DNA of 64,000 nt from an uncultured Cryomorphaceae bacterium (GTDB lineage: Bacteria; Bacteroidota; Bacteroidia; Flavobacteriales; Schleiferiaceae): contig CAJWFD010000003.1 in NCBI GenBank assembly GCA_913031435.1, forward strand, positions 36,528 through 100,527, given 5' to 3'. Below are positions 58,120 through 63,505 of this stretch, piece by piece. The translations under genes were made by a program, and so were the position numbers. Under the pieces are notes generated by a model. That model saw nothing but the letters and a program-made list of their open reading frames with translations. It searched no databases and had not been told where the DNA came from. Positions within the stretch are counted from its first letter, which is position 1. The number at the start of each line of letters is the position of its first letter.

Positions 58120-58194
58120 GGTGATTGTAGCTCAGTTGGTTAGAGCGCCGGTTTGTGGTTCCGGAGGTCGTGGGTTCGAGACCCATCTTTCACC
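58120..58194 (+). tRNA. tRNA-His (GTG anticodon), with stem mismatches
   Basis: Cloverleaf read by eye: G-1 at 58120 opposite discriminator C73 (58194), the tRNA-His identity pair. D arm is GCTC/GAGC, anticodon loop TTGTGGT with GTG at 58155... (58155-58157), T arm GTGGG/CCCAT with TTCGAGA loop. CCA is not encoded. Three pairs do not form: 5:68 and 6:67 in the acceptor stem (both T-T) and 31:39 in the anticodon stem (T-T). Otherwise it looks functional and has its own promoter and terminator. Confidence 0.88.
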
Positions 58195-58200
58195 CTTTAG

Positions 58201-58230: not shown

Positions 58231-58274
58231 TTGTTGTACCCTATCTGTATTGGCTTCGCCAACATTCATTAACC

Positions 58275-58365
58275 AAAGTGACGGGCTAAACTTACTCTAA
58301 GTTAAAACTTATACGATACTTTAAAAATTCAATGTGTCACTTTATGGGTTCAATAGGTCACTTTA
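58275..58365. repeat. Tandem 21-bp repeat with an inverted half-copy beside tRNA-His
   Basis: TTCAATGTGTCACTTTA (58328-58344) and TTCAATAGGTCACTTTA (58349-58365) are 17-bp direct repeats with two differences, 21 bp apart. AAAGTGAC at 58275-58282 is the inverted core. The gene-free stretch 58231-58525 contains nothing else I can name. It could be protein-binding sites of a recombinase or regulator, or a relic transposon end. Confidence 0.55.
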
Positions 58366-58525
58366 CCACACCTTAATACTTACCGTAAGCTATATCTGAG
58401 GAGTATAAACTGATTTTATTGAGCGGGGGGAACTGAGTATATTGAAAGCTTTTATTTTTTTATATTGTTGTCAAATCAACATCCAACTGCCTCACTTCAG
58501 ATTAATTATCACAACTAAGCATACT

Positions 58526-59092
58526 ATGAAAAAGCTACAAATTGCTCTTGCCTTGTTGATTTCAGCAAATATGGCGTTCGCACAGGGTCTCGAAGTTAAA
58601 ACTAATCCTGTGGGTTTTGCATTCGGTGTAACCAATCTAGGGTTGGAATATGCCTTTGCCAAAGATCCCACTTTTTCTGTTTGCGTAGCGGGATGGCATA
58701 TTAACGATAACTTAAAAGAGTGGAATGAGATTGAATGGAATGCTGGTGCTTCGTTGGGTTTCAGGAAATACGTCTTATCTAAATCTGATGACCACGGTTT
58801 ATATATGGGAATAGCAGCGCGCTATATAGATAGCGACCTTTCCGAGTATAACAGCACTTACGACCAGAACGGAGAACCTGTCCGTGACGTTAATGGAGAC
58901 CGTGTTTTAACCTATCGCACTGAACCTAAAAGTTATTCTTCTGCAGGATTTACATTAGGCTACAAACAAGTATTCTCAGATAAATTTACAATTGATGCAC
59001 TGATTGGTATTGGTCGTATTCTTTGGAGAGAAGACGATGGTAATGTTCCAGCAGAATTTATTGGAGGATTTAATTTTGGCTATAGATTTTAA
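58526..59092 (+). CDS. Small outer-membrane beta-barrel protein
   Basis: 188 residues from ATG 58526. Sec signal MKKLQIALALLISANMAFAQ. The mature chain is a run of amphipathic strands (GFAFGVTNLGLEYAFA, WNAGASLGFRKYVL, LYMGIAARYIDSDL, SSAGFTLGYKQVF) ending FIGGFNFGYRF with a C-terminal Phe, typical of 8-stranded outer-membrane barrels (DUF3575-like). Function unknown. First cargo gene after tRNA-His; its stop lies six bases from repeat copy A. Confidence 0.8.
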   Translation: MKKLQIALALLISANMAFAQGLEVKTNPVGFAFGVTNLGLEYAFAKDPTFSVCVAGWHINDNLKEWNEIEWNAGASLGFRKYVLSKSDDHGLYMGIAARYIDSDLSEYNSTYDQNGEPVRDVNGDRVLTYRTEPKSYSSAGFTLGYKQVFSDKFTIDALIGIGRILWREDDGNVPAEFIGGFNFGYRF

Positions 59093-59098
59093 AAGACT

Positions 59099-59199
59099 TT
59101 ATTCCAAATCTGGCAAGTCCTCAAAATCTCGCTGAGGCACTTCTAATCCTCTAAGGTAAACTAACTTGTAGTTAGCTCTGAATGAGCAAGTAACTGCTG
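59099..59199 (-). pseudogene. Integrase 3'-end remnant, copy A
   Basis: Minus strand. One frame reads QLLAHSELTTS and, after a one-base loss, the next frame reads LVYLRGLEVPQRDFEDLPDL then TAA at 59099. This matches the last ~35 residues of a tyrosine recombinase, including the nucleophile Tyr in VYLRG and the upstream HS pair. There is no upstream catalytic Arg-Lys-His-Arg part. The most diverged clear copy, adjacent to the barrel-protein stop. Confidence 0.7.
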
Positions 59200-59313
59200 C
59201 TATTGTATCATCTGCTCTAATACTTAGTGCTATTAATCCCTTTTAGAGTATACATATTGGCGTTTCTGTCGGCAAATTTTACAACTTTCTTATTTAGAAC
59301 CAATCCAAATAGC

Positions 59314-59321
59314 TATATTTG
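59314..59321 (+). promoter_or_regulatory. -7 promoter element of the DoxX-like gene
   Basis: TATATTTG, perfect TAnnTTTG, 22 bases before ATG 59344. Confidence 0.55.
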
Positions 59322-59343
59322 TAAAATATAAATAACGAAAGAA

Positions 59344-59772
59344 ATGAAAGCTACAATTCACACTGTTTGTGCAATCTTATTGGGTTTATTCTTCATATAC
59401 AAGGGCATAGATAAAATACCGATTAAATTAAAAGAGGTCTCTTCTGAAGAAATAACTGCGACTATTATAGAGAGAAATTCATACGAAGCACCCGTTGGAT
59501 ACAAGATCACTATGAATACAATGCGTCAATCGGGGTTCATCAGGGTCATATCACTTTTTCAGATTTTCGCAGGTGTACTTATGATAATACCTAAAACGAG
59601 GCTGGCTGGTTTGTTGATTTTAGTACCGATAATATTAAATATATTCTTGATGCACTTGTTTTTTGACAATAGAATTGGTGAAAACATTCTGACAGGGACG
59701 ATTTTAACTTTAAACTTAGTCTTGTGCTCTTATTATTATAAAAGAATTCAACGGGTACTCATTGATAAATAA
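59344..59772 (+). CDS. DoxX-like small membrane protein
   Basis: 142 residues, four TM helices (VCAILLGLFFIYKGIDKI; RVISLFQIFAGVLMIIP; LAGLLILVPIILNIFLMHLF; GTILTLNLVLCSYYY). The pattern GxxxIYKGIDK in TM1 and a polar middle loop fits the DoxX/DoxD-like superfamily, often tied to redox or respiratory stress. The assignment is tentative. It lies between repeat copies A and B with its own promoter. Confidence 0.65.
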   Translation: MKATIHTVCAILLGLFFIYKGIDKIPIKLKEVSSEEITATIIERNSYEAPVGYKITMNTMRQSGFIRVISLFQIFAGVLMIIPKTRLAGLLILVPIILNIFLMHLFFDNRIGENILTGTILTLNLVLCSYYYKRIQRVLIDK

Positions 59773-59953
59773 ATTAGTTCTAACGACAACATTGAATAAT
59801 ACTAGAGCTGAGAGGAGAAAGGCCGAACGAGTTTGAGGAGGATGTGAGTAGAATACTAATGGTAATTGAATTGGTAAATCTATATTAGTGGCATTAAAAC
59901 TACTATTTATACTCAGCGTCGTAGTCAAGTAGAAGAAACAAATAAAATTTAAT

Positions 59954-60307
59954 ATGACTACAAAAGCTAAACAAGCAAAAAAACCGATCCAACTAAGGAT
60001 TATTTTTATTCTCAATGCTTTGATGATGTTTTTGCCTTTTTTGGTGCATTTCTTGGTTACGAACAATAAAATTGAAATGGACGTAGTTCCAATGTATGTT
60101 ATTTACACAGGAATAGCATATATTATTTCTTTTGGAGCATTAGTTTACTGCATCCTCATTAAGAAGTTTTTTGCATTTAGAACTATGTTTGTTATTAACC
60201 TTCTTATTGCACTTCCTGTGGGTGTAGATGGCGGAATGGTTGTGGCTATTGTGTCATTTATTTTATCACACACAAAGCAAGTGAAATCTTTTTTCAATGC
60301 CAGTTAA
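59954..60307 (+). CDS. Small membrane protein, unknown
   Basis: 117 residues with a basic N-terminus (TTKAKQAKKPIQLR) and three to four hydrophobic segments (IIFILNALMMFLPFLVHFLV; YVIYTGIAYIISFGALVYCI; MVVAIVSFILSH). No family recognised. Preceded by 180 bp of A+T-rich DNA without features; followed within 45 bp by repeat copy B. Confidence 0.6.
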   Translation: MTTKAKQAKKPIQLRIIFILNALMMFLPFLVHFLVTNNKIEMDVVPMYVIYTGIAYIISFGALVYCILIKKFFAFRTMFVINLLIALPVGVDGGMVVAIVSFILSHTKQVKSFFNAS

Positions 60308-60351
60308 GTATTGATAATAGCTTTTTCTTAGTTGGTAATATAGCTTTGAAA

Positions 60352-60442
60352 AAGTAAGATATATAACCTCCTTCAACTTTGTTAAGTCCTCAACATCCAT
60401 GATTTTCACTGCGCTGGCCCTTTCTTTAAGATTTAAAACTCT
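60352..60442 (-). pseudogene. Integrase 3'-end remnant, copy B (diverged)
   Basis: Minus strand reads LKERASAVKIMDVEDLTKL, aligning to VKQLDDEDLPEL of copy C. AAGTCCTCA is identical and is placed 17 bp from a shared 15-bp flank AAGTAAGATATATAA (60352-60366 here, 61073-61087 in copy C). The Tyr region is not recognisable. Protein similarity alone would be weak; the shared flank and spacing make homology with copy C convincing. Confidence 0.55.
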
Positions 60443-60601
60443 AATGGAAAAAGGGGCTATCCTAATCTGTGGATCACTTAAAAACGCAAAAGGGGGTATA
60501 GGAAATAATAGATGTACTTGCTAGAGAATAATTAAACTCAAATATTAAAAAACAGAAAGAAAACAATCAAATTAAAACAGATTGTTATTAATATATATAG
60601 T

Positions 60602-60955
60602 ATGTGTCAAGAATCTAAAATTATTGCTACCGTTAAAAACGGAGAATTATGTATGTGTAGAAGTTGCGAAAATTTTAGCCTTACTTTTAATAATATGCTT
60701 TTTCGATTTGATAAAAGTGAACTAATGCAATTTAGAGATTATGTTTCTAAAATTGATATAGACTACTGGTTAGCACACCCTGCATTTGAAATGCAAAAAA
60801 GGAAAATCCTTGTAGAAACCTTTAATCAAGATTTGTTTTTAATTTTTGATGAATATGAGATGGAACAGTTAAAAACACTCTTAGGTATCAATACGTACGA
60901 CAAGCAAGCGCCCTTGTCTGCGGGTGACATAGACTATCCTTTCTGTTTAAATTAA
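60602..60955 (+). CDS. DUF6686-like small protein
   Basis: 117 residues, soluble. N-terminal CQESKI and a CMCRSCENFSLTFNNMLF segment with clustered cysteines, then FRFDKSELMQFRDYVSKIDI. I recall this layout (Cys pair, strand, 'F...E...F' helix) from Bacteroidota DUF6686 proteins of unknown function; tentative. Cargo between copies B and C. The ATG follows 70 bp of very A-rich DNA. Confidence 0.65.
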   Translation: MCQESKIIATVKNGELCMCRSCENFSLTFNNMLFRFDKSELMQFRDYVSKIDIDYWLAHPAFEMQKRKILVETFNQDLFLIFDEYEMEQLKTLLGINTYDKQAPLSAGDIDYPFCLN

Positions 60956-61072
60956 ACTCTCTACTTTCTTAATAAGGATAAGTTTCCAGTTTTAAGGATT
61001 ATTTTTTTAACGGTATCAAAGGGTGCTAATTTAATGGATACCCAGTAATCGTTAGATGATATAGCTTAGTAC

Positions 61073-61205
61073 AAGTAAGATATATAATCGCCTTCATCTC
61101 AGGCAAGTCCTCATCATCCAACTGCTTCACTTCTAATCCTCTTAAATAGGTGAGTGATACTTTCATGTTACTATAACCCATTACTTGTTTTAGCTTGAGC
61201 AGAGA
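61073..61205 (-). pseudogene. Integrase 3'-end remnant, copy C
   Basis: Minus strand, open frame: SLLKLKQVMGYSNMKVSLTY then LRGLEVKQLDDEDLPEM, running on into the flank without the usual stop and ending at ~61033. Contains the nucleophile Tyr but no upstream catalytic residues. 61102-61162 is identical to 61742-61802 in copy D. The gene-free stretch 60956-61297 holds this copy and, near 61224-61247, an imperfect CAATTGA/TCAATTG inverted repeat. Confidence 0.75.
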
Positions 61206-61297
61206 GCCTGTTTGTATTAAGTTGACAATTGATTAACCTCTGTCAATTGATAAAGTAGTACCTTAACAATCAGCGAATTAGAAACGCTTTTAAGTTT

Positions 61298-61489
61298 ATG
61301 ATGAATTTTATCAATAAATGGTATCCAGTTATAATTGCTTTTATAGCTTTAATGTACTCGGTTGGCTTGGGTCTGACGGGAGATACTGAAGCCGCACAAT
61401 ATTCAGCACATTGGCCTGGAACAATTTTGCTTTTTGCCATAGCAATTCGCCAACGCAGGCTCACTAACCCTAAAAAATATTATCGATGA
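61298..61489 (+). CDS. Small two-TM protein, first of an overlapping pair
   Basis: 63 residues starting MMNFINKWYPVIIAFIALMY; two hydrophobic segments (YPVIIAFIALMYSVGLGL; GTILLFAIAI) and a basic tail (RQRRLTNPKKYYR). An ATG at 61301 is an alternative start. No family recognised. Stop overlaps the next start as ATGA, so the two probably form one functional unit between copies C and D. Confidence 0.55.
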   Translation: MMNFINKWYPVIIAFIALMYSVGLGLTGDTEAAQYSAHWPGTILLFAIAIRQRRLTNPKKYYR

Positions 61490-61677
61490 GTTTTGAAATG
61501 TTCGCAGTGGGCGCTGTATTATTTGCGGTCTATATCTATTTGACCATTTGGAATGTAACCCATAACAATAAGAAACAAGGTCAAGAATATGAATCAAATA
61601 AGGCTGACTTGCCTAGTGATGAATTAGATTCTGATGGTATGGGTAATTTTAGCCGTTTCCCAAAAGAGGAAAAGTAA
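61486..61677 (+). CDS. Small one-TM protein, second of the pair
   Basis: 63 residues: N-terminal TM (FAVGAVLFAVYIYLTIWNV) and a polar acidic tail (NKADLPSDELDSDGMGNF). The opposite charge of its tail to its partner's basic tail may reflect interaction; that is inference. Unknown function. Confidence 0.55.
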   Translation: MSFEMFAVGAVLFAVYIYLTIWNVTHNNKKQGQEYESNKADLPSDELDSDGMGNFSRFPKEEK

Positions 61678-61731
61678 TAACATTTCTAACGGAATAGTAT
61701 GATGGCCCTCGCTTCGGTGGTGGGAGGGGGG

Positions 61732-61824
61732 CTAAAGCTCGGGCAAGTCCTCATCATCCAACTGCTTCACTTCTAATCCTCTTAAATAGGTGAGTGATAC
61801 TTACATTTTACTGTAACCCATTAC
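61732..61824 (-). pseudogene. Integrase 3'-end remnant, copy D
   Basis: Minus strand: VMGYSKM then a TAA stop where copy C has Lys, then VSLTYLRGLEVKQLDDEDL PEL and TAG at 61732. 61 bases are identical to copy C. The left flank (61690-61730) is GC-rich and unrelated to the flank of C. Confidence 0.75.
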
Positions 61825-62270
61825 CTACTATTTATGGGGTTCCAAATAGTAACAATATTAGAATCATCATCTGCTGATTTAACGTGCACTAATTGCTCAT
61901 TTTTTTTATAAAAAGTATTAACTATAATATCGCTATTTCCAAAGTCATCACTACTTCCTTTTTCTATCCTTAAGGTATCTCTAGAGTTTTTCAAAATTGC
62001 TGTATAAGAGCACATACAACAATTCCTTACAACGATTCTCTCCTGTTTCAAGTCCTTGACACTGTAGTGGTTAATATTTAAATTTATATAAAATAGATAA
62101 GAAGTTTTTGAGAATGCTTTGTAAGTGTCTTTGTCATTCTCTGTCCTCTCTAGAAATGAAAGCTCATTAACCCCATTTGTCCATTTAGTATTATAATTCA
62201 TTTTAATAAAGTCTTGGCTATAAGCCGAGAGTGCAACCAATAATGCTGCAATGGTAGTTAGTAGTTTCAT
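61821..62270 (-). CDS. Small secreted protein, unknown
   Basis: 149 residues from ATG 62270 with Sec signal KLLTTIAALLVALSAYSQ; a frame to 62324 has only a polar leader and is rejected. The mature chain is beta-rich with a CCMC cluster (VVRNCCMCSYTAILKNSRDT). Unknown family. The final codons AGT AGG TAA run into copy D: the stop TAA is formed by the repeat's GTAATGGG. Confidence 0.65.
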   Translation of the reverse strand: MKLLTTIAALLVALSAYSQDFIKMNYNTKWTNGVNELSFLERTENDKDTYKAFSKTSYLFYINLNINHYSVKDLKQERIVVRNCCMCSYTAILKNSRDTLRIEKGSSDDFGNSDIIVNTFYKKNEQLVHVKSADDDSNIVTIWNPINSR

Positions 62271-62331
62271 AGTTGTATTGGGTTGTGATAAATCTAATGA
62301 ATATGAAGCTGTTTCCCGTTCCATTCTGACT

Positions 62332-62437
62332 TTACAACTCTAGTAATTCCGCAATATCCAACTGCTTCACTTCTATTCCCCTTAAAATAGGTCAAGGATA
62401 CTTTCATATCGCTATGTCCCATTACTTGCTGTAGGGA
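62332..62437 (-). pseudogene. Integrase 3'-end remnant, copy E
   Basis: Minus strand: SLQQVMGHSDMKVSLTY, then a one-base insertion (CTATTTTAAGG), after which the frame reads LRGIEVKQLDIAELLEL and TAA at 62332. Closest to a normal tyrosine recombinase C-terminus (VMGHSDMKVSLTYLRG with nucleophile Tyr). No upstream domain; the terminator of the SPFH gene begins right beyond it. Confidence 0.78.
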
Positions 62438-62445
62438 AACAAAAA

Positions 62446-62475
62446 AAAGCCCCTTGCAAAGAAGAGGCTCTGTAA
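62446..62475 (-). terminator. Terminator of the SPFH gene
   Basis: Read leftward: AGCCTCTT / AAGGGGCT with one wobble pair, followed by eight T. Confidence 0.75.
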
Positions 62476-62511
62476 AAAAATGATTTCACTTCCAGTATAA
62501 GAAAGTGCAAC

Positions 62512-63396
62512 CTACTGCTTCTTTTCGTTTGCGGCTTTTTTCATAGCCTCTCCTATTTGATTACTTGCACTAAAGCTAGCAACCATATTGTTTAGCATTT
62601 CACTACCAGCCTGTGGAGAGTTTGGCAAGAGAATCAAGTTAGAGTTTGTCTCGCTTCCAATTGACTGCAGCGTATCGTAATGTTGTGTAACAACTATTAG
62701 CGCTGAGGCTTCTTGGGAGTTTATTCCAACCTTGTTTAAAACCTCTACAGATTCTTCTAAGCCACGAGCAATCTCTCTTCTTTGGTCTGCAATTCCTTGA
62801 CCCTGCAACCGCTTGCTCTCTGCCTCAGCTTTTGCTTTCTCTACTATAAGAATCCTTGCAGCATCACCCTCAAACTGTGCTGCAACTTTTTCTCTTTCAG
62901 AAGCGTTAATTCTGTTCATTGCCTCCTTTACCTGAGCGTCTGGGTCGATGTCGGTCACCAGCGTTTTGATTATGTCATAACCATAATCCATCATCGCTAC
63001 GTTTAGTTCTGATTTAACTGCAATAGCAATATCGTCTTTTTTCAAAAACACATCATCTAAAATCATTTTAGGAACCTCCGCTCTAACGACATCAAAAACA
63101 TAGCTCGTTATTTGGTCGTGAGGAAAGTCTAGCTTGTAAAATGCGTCATAAACCTTTTCGTTGATTACTTTATATTGTACAGAAACCTTTAGCTTCACAA
63201 AAACATCATCTTTTGTTTTTGTTTCAATTATAACATCTAGCTGTTGAATTTTCAGACTCAGCTTACCGGCCAGCCTGTCAACGATAGGTATTTTTAGCTG
63301 TAATCCCGACTGCCTAACACTGTGAAATTTTCCAAATCTTTCAATTACTCCTGCCATTTGTTGTTTAACCGTAAAGAAAATTCCGAAAAGAATCAT
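62512..63396 (-). CDS. SPFH/band-7 protein with shortened membrane anchor
   Basis: 294 residues. SPFH core TVKQQMAGVIERFGKFHSVR, GLQLKIPIVDRLAGKLSLKI, DDVFVKLKVSVQYKV, then the stomatin/HflK-type helical arm (NRINASEREKVAAQFEGDAA; RILIVEKAKAEAESKRLQGQ) and an Ala/Ser-rich C-terminus. Such proteins scaffold inner-membrane microdomains. Relatives begin with a full TM helix; here only ILFGIFF precedes the core, and a stop lies in frame just upstream, so the anchor seems truncated. Confidence 0.88.
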   Translation of the reverse strand: MILFGIFFTVKQQMAGVIERFGKFHSVRQSGLQLKIPIVDRLAGKLSLKIQQLDVIIETKTKDDVFVKLKVSVQYKVINEKVYDAFYKLDFPHDQITSYVFDVVRAEVPKMILDDVFLKKDDIAIAVKSELNVAMMDYGYDIIKTLVTDIDPDAQVKEAMNRINASEREKVAAQFEGDAARILIVEKAKAEAESKRLQGQGIADQRREIARGLEESVEVLNKVGINSQEASALIVVTQHYDTLQSIGSETNSNLILLPNSPQAGSEMLNNMVASFSASNQIGEAMKKAANEKKQ

Positions 63397-63455
63397 AAGT
63401 TTTTATGTTTTATAGTTTATACTAAAGTAAGCTGTTTTTGATTTGTTAATCAAAA

Positions 63456-63500
63456 GTTGACTGGTTTTAACTTTTAATCCTCTCAAGTAGTTCTGGAATT
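63456..63500 (-). pseudogene. Integrase 3'-end remnant, copy F
   Basis: Minus strand reads NYLRGLKVKTSQLL, matching TYLRGIEVKQLDIAEL of copy E for about a dozen residues, then diverges. The TTAATCCTCT core is shared with copies A and C. Short and diverged; supported by its place in the array, directly after the stop of the next gene. Confidence 0.5.
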
Positions 63501-63505
63501 CTATT

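Follow-up and report, generated by a model that had tools for sequence, protein, structure and literature searches.

Single-gene cassettes are gathered into arrays by integrons, to our knowledge the only widely known system to do so. Here we analyse a 64,000-nucleotide stretch (the window) of an uncultured Cryomorphaceae bacterium (assembly GCA_913031435.1, contig CAJWFD010000003.1, positions 36,528 to 100,527), in which seven same-facing copies of a tyrosine-integrase 3′ end, all on the minus strand (sites G, A, B, C, D, E and F), delimit six units of small genes adjoining tRNA-His. The layout resembles that of integrons in having one tyrosine recombinase, an array of small mobile units of one or two genes, a single orientation of the sites and mostly unknown functions. 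Arrays both with and without an integrase occur in the two systems, the mobility of the units being derived here from genome comparison. Unlike in integrons, the integrase is not of the IntI type, the 3′ coding end of the integrase itself forms the site, which lacks an attC-like hairpin, the array follows the integrase downstream in line with it, and the cassette genes face either way (31 to 31).

Other described elements share single traits with this locus. The integrase of the Myxococcus phage Mx8 has its attachment site (att) inside the coding sequence of the integrase gene (int), and integration gives int a new 3′ end; the portions of that account available to us deal with one prophage per event and describe no array of int-less cassettes (PMC6070905). 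The archaeal suicidal integrases also have att within the integrase gene, and integration partitions that gene (PMC8371274), whereas here the integrase stands whole at the head of the row and its 3′ tail alone is repeated. Additive flexible genomic islands and tycheposons are tRNA-associated islands of variable cassettes in aquatic bacteria, and tycheposons also use a tyrosine recombinase; the repeat there is a piece of a tRNA gene, such as tRNA-Lys in fGI-2 of Methylopumilus, and not an integrase 3′ end as here (PMC4119200, PMC10872708).

With moderate confidence, we read this row in the window as a cassette array, in which units would be gained, lost and reordered via recombination in the last ~25 codons of the integrase gene, a reaction predicted to be catalysed by the integrase, which we infer to be the recombining enzyme. 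The array spans from tRNA-His to the end of the contig (C3), which is also the end of the window, and a seventh, cut-off unit follows site F; the draft genome has 1.83 Mb in 66 contigs. The original prediction had placed six minus-strand segments of one integrase C-terminus (A to F) just after tRNA-His. All six were recovered beside that gene, close to where it had set them, and site G was added.

The copies were scored with a matrix made from seven integrase 3′ ends, all from outside the window (one from contig C26 of the same genome and six from relatives). The scores were 147.7 for C, 108.1 for D, 75.3 for E, 62.1 for A, 36.1 for G, 32.0 for B and 25.6 for F, and the next-best place in the region reached 17.6. 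The highest value among 60 dinucleotide shuffles was 24.2, and the similarity is therefore above chance for all seven copies (60/60 shuffles), narrowly for F. Sites B and F are weak, and neither is among the genome-wide matches to the site model at E <= 1. For site B, further support comes from blastn, which aligns it to copy C (83% over 48 bases, E=5.6e-8), and from a 73-nt, 78% repeat common to B and C that extends beyond the integrase stop; site F has no blastn match or repeat of this kind.

The absence of an intact integrase, as first proposed, held for the window and failed for the genome. An intact parent integrase with the same tail was found on contig C26, as an open reading frame (ORF) of 381 amino acids (aa), or 369 aa from the first ATG, that ends in ...VMGHSELTTSLIYLRGLEVKQLDVEDLPEL and has its stop 13 bases from the contig end. 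Its sole Pfam family is PF00589 (Phage_integrase; 30.8 bits, cut-off 27.1), and its closest PDB sequence is 4a8e, titled 'probable tyrosine recombinase XerC-like'. In 11 aligned integrases R224, K252, H343 and Y352 are invariant and R320 is nearly so, with Y at the usual position of the first His; we take these residues to be catalytic from the motif of tyrosine recombinases.

Of the three findings that, by the original prediction, would have refuted it, none was borne out: besides the similarity above chance, copies were also found beyond the window. The same genome has further sites on contigs C11 (2), C24 (2) and C33 (1), besides weak ones on C26 (2) and C34 (1). Site-model matches at E <= 0.001 are present in 13 of the 25 genomes of the genus; the sole match in three of them (G005, G011 and G021) is the integrase's own end, so copies beyond it occur in 10 of the 25. 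The order of cassettes among relatives, another point raised at the outset, does differ. At a locus marked by tRNA-Ala and a 112-aa gene, the content varies among species: G001 has five sites and G013 six and a weak seventh, with no integrase nearby in either, G010 has the integrase and one unit, and G024, by eye, one unit and a degenerate site. A SOUL/RecQ locus yielded no clean empty site; the gene is in 7/25 genomes, with only G020 close enough for comparison.

Outside the genus, a collection of one genome per species was scanned, which gave 197 confirmed relatives of the integrase. The best 80 loci were used, 71 of which had not already been taken from near relatives (not chosen by site). 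The last 150 bases of the locus's own integrase recur downstream on the same strand in 27/80 loci (23/71 of those not already taken). Leaving out matches to the integrase's own end, 485 kb of downstream sequence holds 48 same-strand copies (27 loci), whereas 595 kb of upstream sequence holds 9 (7 loci); the five opposite-strand copies are all in one locus. In the array of Polaribacter AH-660-K13 (L166), the integrase is followed by five sites, and the stop codon marks the end of each. The 74 inter-site units, from intervals of 150-4500 bases, have a median of 859 bases. An ORF of 50 aa is absent from 12 of them; in the others, the largest ORF runs with the integrase in 31 units and opposite to it in 31. 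In L160, one unit consists of a Peptidase_S24 and IMS-polymerase pair (UmuD/UmuC type).

An alternative put forward at first, that of footprints of serial integration, proved weaker. Each unit would once have been a whole element with its own integrase and an att overlapping the int 3′ end, and the integrases would have decayed later. This accounts for the one-way 3′ tails and for the edge at the stop codon; an integrase is still present in 3/74 units, and L171 retains a long 3′ piece of one. Decay should also leave 5′ and internal pieces. With matches below 45% identity dropped, full-length tblastn found 55 3′-only integrase fragments in 106 loci. The 71 loci not chosen by site hold 31 of the 3′-only type, 30 of them facing as the integrase, against five others (one 5′-only, three internal and one long 3′) and one contig-edge row; two of the rows that are not 3′-only are adjoining pieces of one gene in L181. 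This dominance of 3′-only fragments disfavours the decay of whole integrases. In addition, common int-less units in different order indicate that int-less units moved, and we regard serial integration as rather improbable.

Recurrence and reordering of units were seen in several comparisons, for which 11 sites were added by hand to the nhmmer list. L195 has the order int-P-Q and L196 the order int-Q-x-P, P of L196 being cut by the contig end; unit Q matches from the first base past the stop to within three bases of the end of the next site. A ~265-bp unit is common to L150 and L166, with 2 differences in 176 bases of its body and with different left-hand sequence. A 207-aa unit lies beside the integrase in G010 and in the middle of an array in G001 (95% identical), and a 168-aa unit occurs twice in G001, in separate arrays, and once in an array of G024 (86-90%).

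Of the 92 array sites, 85 copy the 26-124 bases with which the integrase coding region ends, in counts that left out integrase heads and sites with < 150 bases of left context. The left edge of homology falls at -71..-78 from the stop in 23/92 sites from 18 loci (23/91 without a probably spurious site at 10962 of L197, inside its integrase), a cluster size reached by 0/5000 jittered sets. Among 15 pairs of related integrases, some sharing a member (11 met the identity cut and 4 were added by hand), the alignment stops at most 8 bases from the stop in 11. On the 5′ side it continues to the start codon or beyond in all pairs except two, mostly for 50-180 bases where the sequence sufficed.

In closely related integrases, tails differ more per residue than bodies. 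In 18 independent pairs with at least 97% identity over residues 1-300, the mismatch is 0.7% there (37/5282), 1.5% in residues 301-340 and 6.5% in 341-369 (34/522), with a Fisher p = 9e-18 when residues are treated as independent. The 3261 pairs at 70-85% show the reverse trend, with 23.5% in the body, ~6% in residues 341-360 and 14.7% in the last nine. The proteins were 120 of 1570 listed, representatives of 90% clusters, and near-identical ones were listed apart, which possibly affected the choice of pairs. The integrase-first same-strand rows, the excess of 3′-only fragments, the recurrence and reordering of units and this divergence of the tails all favour the cassette array with an integrase-3′-end site that the original prediction suggested.

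The arrays may also be related to tRNA islands. Among 14 loci chosen for a tRNA found by ARAGORN, a piece of the tRNA is repeated at most 200 bases upstream of int in 8, which suggests tRNA genes as a probable second target of the integrase, where the whole island would be inserted; the int-containing interval of L194 has two tRNA pieces. In some relatives, int and its row are probably within an island bounded by tRNA repeats, transferred between cells as tRNA islands with the cassettes exchanged inside. An additive tRNA island, with units parted by tRNA-gene repeats, was ruled out, as int 3′ ends part the units. A ~200-bp segment between tRNA-His and the array has an 81% copy on contig C24 of the same genome (17164-17345), between an array and tRNA-Asn, and a weaker partial copy in G020; it was rejected as a general island end, being in only 2/25 genus genomes. 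In a comparison of the genome's own arrays (C3, C11 and C24) and those of relatives (L052, L056, L057, L058, L065 and L060), arrays lie on the 3′ side of tRNA-His, -Arg, -Asn and -Leu and on the 5′ side of tRNA-Ala and -Met. In L161 (6580-9045), by tRNA-Met, there are four ~50-bp direct repeats (89-94%) of a terminator-like stretch, spaced 600-920 bp; these repeats, upstream of the integrase, may form another type of repeat array within that island.

Several observations weigh against the cassette array as we read it. The window array and the intact integrase are on separate contigs, C3 and C26, and since the window stops at the contig end, a linkage of the two is hypothetical. The evidence is of genome comparison only, with no recombination event, circle or empty site seen, and 53/80 loci have no downstream copy at the threshold used, some of them holding little downstream sequence. 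Other groups of left edges exist, at -31..-36 (11/92 sites, 8 of them from L160 and L192) and at -111..-120 (7/92). Similarity persists for 17 to 136 bases beyond the stop in four of the 15 integrase pairs, and in two it breaks off well within int on the 5′ side. Differences between copies of the 207-aa and 168-aa units extend to their leaders, outside the site. The tails that flank the unit common to L150 and L166 match at 63/73 and 66/73 positions, against 174/176 in the body; tails less alike than the body are mosaic, and a single fixed crossover does not account for them. A single crossover position was accordingly ruled out, from the several left-edge groups together with the mosaic tails. 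The tail-divergence data come mostly from metagenome contigs, many of them short, in which repeats can be mis-joined. Finally, these integrases also seem to use tRNA genes as targets for island insertion, and a search by eye for a core shared by tRNA and int tail gave nothing convincing. The use of two unlike sites by one enzyme is the weakest point of the proposal; a precedent is IntI, which acts on attI and attC.

RecA-type homologous recombination is a serious rival. Here the int tails would be passive homology, exchange between them would shuffle cargo in tRNA islands, and the integrase would act only at the tRNA. The mosaic tails and variable exchange points, the bounding of some islands by tRNA repeats and the length of tails of 75-120 bases, which could act as homology, agree with it. 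It leaves unexplained why the repeat is mainly the int 3′ end and why left edges cluster at -71..-78. Moreover, all nine sites of L160 and L192 begin merely 26-36 bases before the stop, which is short for general homologous recombination. We consider this explanation of the arrays unlikely, less so than serial integration; homologous recombination between tails may nevertheless add to integrase action or replace it.

A canonical integron, or an attC array without integrase (CALIN), would have a like layout, with one integrase, a row of one-gene units and a single site orientation. The integron-integrase model TIGR02249 gave 22.9 bits for the integrase of this genome and 46.6 bits for that of G001, against a cut-off of 265, and the sites are int coding sequence. 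Folding like that of attC was ruled out: an alignment of 22 sites had 0 conserved pairs, and none of 5 sites, on either strand, folded with unusual stability (z -1.4 to +2.1). A GTTRRRY integron core was rejected by eye, GTTGGAT being in many sites and GCTGGAT in several. An integron is thus very improbable here. Since the sites do not resemble attC, the most economical reading is that double-stranded sites recombine within the last ~25 codons.

An assembly artefact, with chimaeric joins at repeated int tails in short-read assemblies, was also considered, since the contigs of the window and of the intact integrase both stop at or near the repeat system. Arrays of four to five sites, three of them among the clearest, lie within single contigs of L166, L192 and L201, records presumed from their names to be single-cell genomes, and sites are also in the long contigs of L161 (2.3 Mb) and L173 (0.7 Mb). 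We give this explanation hardly any credence.

Under the cassette-array model, units would travel as integrase-less, perhaps circular, DNA. A unit inserting at the integrase 3′ end would re-supply the last codons, the reading frame and the stop, and at sites that start 71-78 bases before the stop the re-supplied part would include the codon of the active-site tyrosine. This would parallel the new 3′ end that the int of phage Mx8 receives on integration (PMC6070905), and the excess divergence of the tails and the loss of similarity at the stop fit such a replacement. The left part of the next site would come from the 3′ end of the unit itself, and arrays without a linked integrase would be moved in trans. 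More tentatively, these arrays may represent a second gene-capture system beside integrons, independently evolved and widespread in Flavobacteriales, in which the 3′ end of the integrase gene is the cassette-insertion site, each cassette re-encodes the C-terminal tail of the integrase (in one site class with the active-site tyrosine) and the newest cassette completes the enzyme that captured it. If true, cassette capture would have evolved more than once, by a simpler route with sites drawn from the integrase gene and no attC-like fold, and this would account for some of the gene turnover next to tRNA genes in Flavobacteriales, which are abundant in seawater. The int 3′ tail would also be a readable tag for finding many unknown small cassette genes. 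Searches of a library of open-access papers listed no account of arrays bounded by integrase 3′ ends.

Table 1. Features between tRNA-His and the end of the window (positions of the window)
Feature	Coordinates	Strand	Evidence
tRNA-His, 3′ end toward the array	58121..58195	+	ARAGORN
~200-bp segment between tRNA-His and the array; putative island end	58231..58431	+	
Site G, short seventh integrase 3′-end copy, between tRNA-His and the DUF3575 gene	58475..58500	-	E=0.0019; 0/60 shuffles equal
Cassette G-A gene, DUF3575 protein (PF12099)	58529..59092	+	Pfam
Site A, integrase 3′-end copy, closest to the genome's own integrase (SELTT) by eye	59102..59199	-	
Cassette A-B gene 1, 142-aa protein, DoxX/MauE-like below cut-off	59344..59772	+	
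Cassette A-B gene 2, 117-aa protein outside any Pfam family, judged by eye to be a membrane protein	59954..60307	+	
Site B, degenerate integrase 3′-end copy (60374-60399) and flank common with site C	60338..60410	-	
Cassette B-C gene, DUF6686 protein (PF20391)	60602..60955	+	Pfam
Site C, longest integrase 3′-end copy of the window	61092..61215	-	
Cassette C-D gene 1, 63-aa protein; a unit of L198 has a homologue (50% over 46 aa)	61298..61489	+	
Cassette C-D gene 2, 63-aa protein, overlapping gene 1	61486..61677	+	
Site D, integrase 3′-end copy, 95% to C over 87 nt	61732..61831	-	
Cassette D-E gene, secreted protein by eye, MKLLTTIAAxL signal-peptide group; possible ORF start 62324	61821..62267	-	
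Site E, integrase 3′-end copy	62332..62436	-	
Cassette E-F gene, SPFH/Band_7, HflK-like below cut-off	62512..63396	-	
Site F, truncated, weak integrase 3′-end copy	63468..63502	-	E=1.9; matrix scan vs shuffles
Gene of the next unit, running to the contig end	63506..63991	-	

Two genes of the window have homologues in units of other arrays: the first gene of cassette C-D and the gene of the cut-off unit, the latter in a unit of the array on contig C1 of G001 (28% over 181 columns). PADLOC gave no hits for the integrase and nine window proteins, and a defence-gene content was rejected on that basis. The D-E gene and many unit genes of L052, L053, L056, L058 and L016 have a common start, MKLLTTIAAVLISISAFSQDY or a near variant; their upstream leader is often common too, while the mature proteins differ, a pattern as would be expected of a leader that served as a point of recombination or fusion. 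On contig C11 of the same genome (L015:1343-4329), two neighbouring repeat-rich genes of 440 and 521 aa have a common 359-bp stretch, 90% identical, one gene being within a unit and the other before that unit.

Viral contigs were searched for the site with two exact patterns, which gave 0 matches and excluded its presence there in that form; only four relatives of the integrase were found in them, at 24-31% identity. Integrase loci L157, L165, L173 and L198 come from records labelled Nitrospirae, Verrucomicrobia, Rhodobacteraceae and Euryarchaeota, and our guess is that they are possibly misbinned contigs of Flavobacteriales. In 7 of the 14 array sites displayed (from L146, L150, L166, L195 and L196), CAAATATA stands directly left of the site. 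We take it to be the Bacteroidota -7 motif TAnnTTTG, directed toward the gene that starts there, and units may carry a promoter at the site edge. In L054 (1-2167; contig C36 of G003), two different integrases of the family are arranged head to head, and the contig end truncates the left one.

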